From NCBI GenBank assembly GCA_030428615.1, contig JAUIDN010000004.1:1-64000 (forward strand): a DNA stretch of 64,000 bases. Reading direction: 5' to 3'. A program made the position numbers and the translations under genes. The stretch is from Alphaproteobacteria bacterium (GTDB taxonomy: Bacteria; Pseudomonadota; Alphaproteobacteria; Sphingomonadales; Emcibacteraceae). Shown one piece after another: positions 62,229 through 63,381 of this stretch (within the stretch, counting starts at the first letter, position 1; each line of letters starts with the position of its first letter). Under the pieces are notes generated by a model that saw only the letters and a program-made list of their open reading frames with translations, made no database searches and was not told where the DNA came from.

Positions 62229-62687
62229 TTACGCAGCGTCTTCATCAACAATTTTTTTGATGTCAGCGGTTTTATTTATTTTAATGGAGCGTGGTTTTAG
62301 ATGTTCGGGGATTTCACGCTGTAAATCAATCATCAGCAGGCCGTTTTCAAATTGCGCGCCAAGTACCTTAATAGTATCAGCTAATCTGAAATGGCGTTTA
62401 AAGGCGCGTTTTGCGATTCCACGATGAAGGAAGCGTTCATTGTCCACTTCTTCGTCTGCACCCTCGGCGGAAATAACAAGTACACCGCCATCAAGCTCAA
62501 TATCAAGATCTTCTTCGCTAAACCCGGCAAGCGCCATGGTAATGCGGTAATCGTCTTCATCCAGCTTTTCGATATTATAAGGGGGATAGGAAATATCGTT
62601 ATTTCCTACTGCATTTTCAAAAATGCGGTTCATTTGGTCAAACCCTATTGTGGATTTGAGTAATGGGCTAAAATCTAATGTTCTCAT
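62229..62687 (-). CDS. Small heat shock protein, Hsp20/IbpA type
   Basis: 152 residues. The alpha-crystallin domain spans about 37-128 (YNIEKLDEDDYRITMALAGFSEEDLDIELDGGVLVISAEG, ending FENGLLMIDLQREIPEHLKPRSIKI). The N-terminus MRTLDFSPLLKSTIGFDQMNRIFENA is IbpA-like. It binds unfolding proteins without ATP. The start at ATG 62687 has SD AGGA inside a ROSE-type hairpin, and a promoter lies further upstream, so control by temperature at both levels is expected. Confidence 0.95.
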   Translation of the reverse strand: MRTLDFSPLLKSTIGFDQMNRIFENAVGNNDISYPPYNIEKLDEDDYRITMALAGFSEEDLDIELDGGVLVISAEGADEEVDNERFLHRGIAKRAFKRHFRLADTIKVLGAQFENGLLMIDLQREIPEHLKPRSIKINKTADIKKIVDEDAA

Positions 62688-62692
62688 GTCTT

Positions 62693-62785
62693 ATATCCTT
62701 TCATTTAAGCGATATTACCAACTGTTGTATAAACCAACGGTTGGCGAATTTGCGTCCGTAGCGAGCCTATCGCCCCATCTGGCGA
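62693..62785 (-). promoter_or_regulatory. ROSE-type RNA thermometer in the hsp20 leader
   Basis: In the minus-strand leader the last hairpin (62715-62693) pairs AUAUC-[G]-CUU with AAGGAUAU around a 6-nt loop, leaving one bulged G. The SD AGGA is paired with UCGCU, the ROSE signature U(U/C)GCU. Two more hairpins lie upstream: CCAAC-GTTG/CAAC-GTTGG (62744-62718) and TCGCC/GGCGA (62785-62770). The SD is 8 nt from the ATG. This is the known layout of ROSE elements before small heat shock genes in rhizobia. Confidence 0.8.
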
Positions 62786-62809
62786 CGATTTTTGCCCCGC
62801 TACATAAAT

Positions 62810-62838
62810 ATAGATATTAAGTCATTTTGCTTTTTCAA
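62810..62838 (-). promoter_or_regulatory. Candidate heat-shock promoter of hsp20
   Basis: TTGAAA (62838-62833), 17 nt, ATCTAT (62815-62810) on the minus strand. The -35 is close to the CTTGAA of alphaproteobacterial RpoH promoters. The transcript would start near 62800 and give a leader of about 110 nt. Confidence 0.45.
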
Positions 62839-62904: not shown

Positions 62905-63381
62905 ATGATCAATGACGTGATAACACAGGACGGTACGCTGGATTCTGCGGTGCTGGATGAACTTTATAATGAAGCGCTTGATTTAAGCGGTCGTGTCGTT
63001 GAGTATTTTCAAAAAAATCAAAAAGAAAGCTTTCAGCATCTCGGTCCGGAGCTGATGGGCTCATACACTCTTGAATGTAACCGTATTACGACGGGAATTA
63101 TGCAGGCAATGTCGTGGTGTCTGATGCAAAAGGGCGTCCGTTCTGGTGAAGTCAGCAGTGAAGAAGTCGCCAAGACGACAAACCGTTTAAGTAATACAGA
63201 ATTATTTAATGTCCCTGTAAGCAGTGATAACGACAAACTGCCCAACGAATTTATGAATTACTCGGAACGTGTTCGGGCGCTTTATGGCCGGATAGTGAGG
63301 CTTGATCGTCTTCTATATGAAGTTGACAAAACTAACGAAAACCCGGTTCGCAACCTAATGAATAAAATAGAAAAAATATAA
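62905..63381 (+). CDS. rcdA: RcdA-type regulator of CtrA degradation (DUF1465)
   Basis: 158 residues, all-helical. The DUF1465 pattern VLDELYNEALDLSGRVVEYFQ, with YTLECNRITTGIMQAMSWCLMQKGVRSGEVS, is clear. In Caulobacter RcdA is a ClpXP adaptor that helps remove the cell-cycle regulator CtrA. It is divergent from hsp20 and convergent with rpmE, which is a common alphaproteobacterial position. SD GGTAAG precedes ATG 62905. Confidence 0.85.
   Translation: MINDVITQDGTLDSAVLDELYNEALDLSGRVVEYFQKNQKESFQHLGPELMGSYTLECNRITTGIMQAMSWCLMQKGVRSGEVSSEEVAKTTNRLSNTELFNVPVSSDNDKLPNEFMNYSERVRALYGRIVRLDRLLYEVDKTNENPVRNLMNKIEKI

Follow-up and report, generated by a model that had tools for sequence, protein, structure and literature searches.

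The hsp20 locus and its candidate promoter

The window, a stretch of 64,000 nucleotides from a genome of 3.39 Mb, encodes a small heat-shock protein on its minus strand. The gene is preceded by a structured leader and an RpoH-like promoter (Table 1). It is the sole Pfam Hsp20 gene genome-wide, and the best NCBIfam matches of its product are IbpA and IbpB, both below the curated cut-offs (IbpA 6.5e-42). The named relatives of the protein come from MAGs of Emcibacteraceae, Alphaproteobacteria (86% identity).

The candidate promoter proposed in the preliminary description, a TTGAAA-N17-ATCTAT arrangement resembling the RpoH type, is present upstream of the leader. It is consensus-like and its position is conserved, with CTTG[AC] found upstream of 72 of 86 Hsp20 leaders compared with 23% in shuffles. 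Transcription would start near 62803 and yield a 5′ UTR roughly 116 nt long, and hsp20 transcription is probably RpoH-dependent. The conserved CTTG[AC] is consistent with RpoH transcription, in which case heat would regulate hsp20 at the transcriptional as well as the translational level. A DUF1465 gene (Pfam 5e-29) lies next to hsp20 in divergent orientation, at 62905-63381 (+). It starts about 67 bases from the hsp20 -35 box, so the short gap contains both promoters.

Table 1. Coordinates of features at the hsp20 locus (window positions) and of ROSE-type leaders upstream of rpoH (locus:positions)
Feature	Position	Strand	Basis or genome
RpoH-like promoter: -35 TTGAAA 62838-62833, N17, -10 ATCTAT 62815-62810	62810..62838	-	sequence
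Hairpin I	62757..62804	-	fold; compensatory changes
Hairpin II, GCCAAC.GUUG / CAAC.GUUGGU	62717..62745	-	fold; helix 2 covaries in other genera
Hairpin III, putative thermometer hairpin, AUAUC-[G62710]-CUU / AAGGAUAU	62693..62715	-	fold; covarying flanking pairs
Shine-Dalgarno (SD) AGGA, masked by hairpin III and 8 nt 5′ of AUG	62696..62699	-	sequence, fold, pairing probabilities by temperature
hsp20 start codon AUG, not part of the SD hairpin	62685..62687	-	sequence and fold
Gene for an Hsp20/IbpA-like small heat-shock protein of 152 aa	62229..62687	-	Pfam HSP20 4.4e-18
ROSE-type leader before rpoH	L228:200-270	+	G170
ROSE-type leader before rpoH	L226:101-192	-	G140
ROSE-type leader before rpoH	L227:167-261	+	G215
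ROSE-type leader before rpoH	L235:100-168	-	G118
Further ROSE-type leaders before rpoH	L248, L256, L243, L233, L239		

Structure of the leader

The minimum-energy fold of 62804-62680 on the minus strand contains the three hairpins that had been described from the sequence. The minimum-energy and centroid structures coincide at -39.6 kcal/mol, and the fold is unusually stable (z = -3.97; 0 of 200 dinucleotide shuffles equally stable). A longer fragment adopts another minimum-energy structure in its 5′ part, with hairpins II and III retained in its centroid.

Hairpin III resembles the SD hairpin of ROSE elements, in which a U(U/C)GCU anti-SD sequence with a bulged G occupies the start-proximal hairpin. 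Here, AUAUC-[G]-CUU pairs with AAG-GAUAU around an AAAUGA loop and places UCGCU opposite the SD sequence AGGA. The description of a last hairpin with a single bulged G is borne out, as exactly one G (62710) is unpaired. The spacing of 8 nt between the SD and the start codon was likewise read correctly (AUG 62687-62685). ROSE leaders comprise two to four hairpins with the start codon outside the SD hairpin; the window's leader has three, of which hairpin II is weak within the genus.

Hairpin I carries its own bulged G. Its apical part (62789-62769) reads AUCGUC-[G62783]-CC-AGAU-GGGGCGAU and closes on a 4-nt loop, and the bulged G62783 is kept in nine of nine genus members. Hairpin II is absent from the RNAalifold consensus of the window's own genus and is unalignable between its species. 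In this genus hairpin II lacks the bulged-G plan and is unlike that of the rest of the order.

Conservation and covariation among Hsp20 leaders

Leaders were collected upstream of Hsp20 genes from the window's genus, family, and GTDB order. The U(U/C)GCU motif followed by the SD and AUG occurs in 88 of 90 Hsp20 leaders of the order, and the two leaders without it belong to divergent second Hsp20 genes. A MAFFT alignment of hairpin III from all leaders (A3) failed on the loops, which are unalignable, and pair counts were therefore taken on motif-anchored positions; the SD register was picked by best pairing, which introduces a mild bias into these counts. Across the anchored leaders, the four core pairs with the SD hardly vary, and the bulged G never does. 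The flanking pairs covary: the first is A-U in 51 leaders, G-C in 19 and U-A in three, and the second is U-A in 30 and A-U in 23. None of 1000 shuffles reached equally high covariation.

A second alignment (A4) comprises 32 leaders of the order and excludes the window's genus. RNAalifold recovered all three hairpins from it, with 93.9% of cells paired and compensatory change in 17 of 23 pairs. Shuffled controls gave 80.1% paired cells and 11.3 compensatory pairs, slid registers at most 55.5% and at most 10, and 0 of 500 shuffles scored equally high. The bulged G and UYGCU of hairpin III are present in all 32 rows. In the window's genus alone, hairpins I and III were found, with 95.1% of cells paired and covariation above all shuffles.

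Across the order, the three hairpins follow a common design, in which one bulged G precedes a CC or CU that pairs with GG or AG. This G is present in 31 of 31 A4 rows for hairpin I, 26 of 32 for hairpin II, and 32 of 32 for hairpin III (columns 17, 70, and 120). From their sequences, the three hairpins look as if they were built from one repeated module.

Relationship to known ROSE elements

No Rfam model matches the window at E ≤ 10, including RF00435 (ROSE) and ROSE_2, in either a scan of the window or a permissive scan of 501 bases; gathering thresholds gave no match either. The covariance search recommended in the preliminary description thus came back empty even at E 10. The 99 relatives yielded a single RF00435 match over the cut-off, the leader L117 with 51 bits, plus about 29 weak matches; in the order, the matches end mostly at Hsp20 gene starts. 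These positions indicate that the ROSE family is present in the order and that the window lies beyond the reach of the model. The leader of another relative (L011) scores 24 bits with ROSE_2 (RF01832).

Homology with accepted ROSE elements was established with a model, R1, that was built from A4 and contains no sequence of the window's genus; it includes the over-threshold leader L117. R1 matches 62685-62793 (-) at E 1.5e-6 in a search of the window. The same leader is the top match in the whole genome (E 8.1e-5; next match 1.0). Among 142 genomes sampled across the class, 49 have an R1 match at E ≤ 0.01 and six an RF00435 match, so RF00435 misses most alphaproteobacterial ROSE leaders. R1 and RF00435 coincide before an Hsp20 gene in three genomes (G153, G157, and G173). 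About 50 of the 54 R1 matches lie directly upstream of Hsp20 genes, as assigned by Pfam coordinates or translation of the downstream frame, three precede rpoH, and one is unexplained. R1 matches in G003, G002, and G141:C14 have no fitting downstream gene and were taken as chance.

The leader shares with RF00435 ROSE elements (Bradyrhizobium hspA type) a small heat-shock gene downstream, a putative RpoH-like promoter, and an SD hairpin that combines U(U/C)GCU with a bulged G. Hairpin I of the RF00435 consensus equals that of the window (6 bp, bulged G, 2 bp, 4-nt loop). The window's leader differs in being A+U-rich and undetected by the model, in an outer stem that lengthens hairpin I, in a different hairpin II, and in its SD, which is AAGGA rather than AGGAGGA. 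The short ROSE-like thermometers of Pseudomonas ibpA likewise combine U(U/C)GCU opposite the SD in the last hairpin with a sigma-32-type promoter and an IbpA-type gene, but have two hairpins in about 61 nt compared with three in about 116 nt here (PMC3669281). ROSE_2 elements share the SD motif and the function predicted for the window's leader, although the window itself has no ROSE_2 match. FourU thermometers also place a zipper-like hairpin over the SD; this class was rejected because the SD here faces UCGCU with its bulged G instead of four consecutive U.

Every structural and contextual hallmark of ROSE elements that could be tested, including a small heat-shock gene directly downstream (Pfam HSP20; SD-to-AUG 8 nt), is present at this locus, and a match to an Rfam model is not. 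The missing match is a detection limit of the models and not a structural feature. As homology was shown by other means, we assign the leader to the ROSE family as a divergent element. The original ROSE-type reading thus finds support in the U(U/C)GCU motif with its invariant bulged G, the covariation of three hairpins, and the R1 matches with their RF00435 coincidences.

Proposed mechanism and alternative explanations

In ROSE elements, the SD is masked when cool; the pairs around the bulged G are heat-labile, and their melting releases it (PMC3669281, PMC11342760, PMC4166951). We are confident in reading the hsp20 leader as a divergent RNA thermometer of the ROSE type. The putative RpoH heat-shock promoter would produce an mRNA with the long 5′ UTR. 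At low temperature, hairpin III would pair UCGCU with the SD and block the 30S subunit. Upon warming, the bulged G and weak A-U pairs would let hairpin III melt, and the opened SD would permit Hsp20 synthesis. The conserved hairpins I and II may be accessory, probably aiding the correct folding of the leader.

ViennaRNA predicts that SD exposure in the leader climbs from about 0.01-0.05 (25 °C) through 0.06-0.18 (42 °C) to 0.35-0.49 (55 °C) and drops to almost nothing when the bulged G is removed. From 25 to 42 °C the predicted opening changes little, and absolute values are low. Nearest-neighbor models describe ROSE hairpins poorly because they omit their non-canonical pairs, and given the low absolute values we treat these predictions as a consistency check only. 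They are compatible with a thermal function of the leader, in which hairpin III may melt in the cell and control translation.

This small predicted change, together with the conserved promoter, would also suit a descendant of a ROSE element whose hairpin masks the SD and lowers translation without acting as a thermometer, heat induction being left to the RpoH promoter. We regard this as quite unlikely, as the bulged G that renders ROSE hairpins heat-labile is invariant in the aligned leaders although its loss could strengthen the hairpin. A leader that binds a protein or sRNA, with a structure kept for binding and not for melting, is also improbable, if a little less so. IbpA is reported to autoregulate ibpA mRNA in E. 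coli, a precedent for autoregulation by a small heat-shock protein, and the strong conservation of hairpin I with its own bulged G would fit such a role. The most conserved part of the leader is nevertheless the SD hairpin, and in Pseudomonas the ROSE-like SD hairpin alone suffices for thermoregulation (PMC3669281). Binding and thermometer mechanisms may coexist in the same leader.

Short hairpins often form over AGGA, and no Rfam model matches, as would be expected if a chance hairpin had formed over an AU-rich start region. The probability of this is negligible: the covariation, the motif shared by 88 of 90 orthologues, and the R1 match to a genus left out of the model all speak against it, and we consider a chance origin refuted by the covariation and by the R1 matches in window and genome. 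We therefore retain the divergent ROSE-type thermometer as the explanation of the leader.

ROSE-type leaders upstream of rpoH

The three R1 matches outside the small heat-shock context lie directly before rpoH in the genomes G140, G170, and G215. The protein downstream of the match in G170 is RpoH by TIGR02392. R1 matches 10 of the 12 genomes in the family of G170 (E ≤ 0.1); eight of these 10 carry the U(U/C)GCU-SD motif directly before an rpoH frame. A survey of 70 rpoH loci identified ROSE-type leaders in nine alphaproteobacterial families (f28, f45, f50, f57, f58, f76, f80, f97, and f125). The same survey found none at the 30 best-scoring RpoH genes or at the window's own rpoH. Most SD hairpins of the rpoH leaders have nine to ten pairs with one bulged G, and mostly a bulged-G hairpin I is present as well. 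A model of the rpoH leaders (R2) recognizes some Hsp20 leaders, that of the window weakly (16.4 bits, E 0.04).

A tree built from 47 RpoH proteins groups the ROSE-bearing ones together (4 changes; 0 of 500 shuffles as low). They stand apart from the main alphaproteobacterial RpoH, though on long branches and with rough support. Their sequences suggest that the carriers of ROSE-type rpoH leaders form a divergent RpoH lineage.

ROSE elements were reviewed as always associated with small heat-shock genes (PMC4166951), and later reports place them elsewhere, at ABC transporters (PMC11342760) and rhlA (PMC13104619). Alphaproteobacterial RpoH control has been described as transcriptional or as acting via activation of existing protein (PMC5745026). 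The literature searched, which covered few subscription papers and did not extend to the work on the B. japonicum rpoH1 operon, contained no report of a ROSE element directly before rpoH.

Implications

The leader in the window adds a ROSE element that public models miss, although the kind of switch is already known. The gap between the genomes matched by R1 and by RF00435 implies that annotation pipelines under-call ROSE several-fold in the class. On balance, we favor the view that Rfam greatly understates the size of the ROSE family in Alphaproteobacteria, that the family extends beyond small heat-shock genes, and that it controls RpoH translation in the roughly nine families of a divergent rpoH lineage. 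If so, one type of RNA switch would sense heat for the master regulator RpoH in those bacteria. With the rpoH leaders, the idea that an RNA thermometer acts directly on the heat-shock regulator could be put to the test in Alphaproteobacteria.
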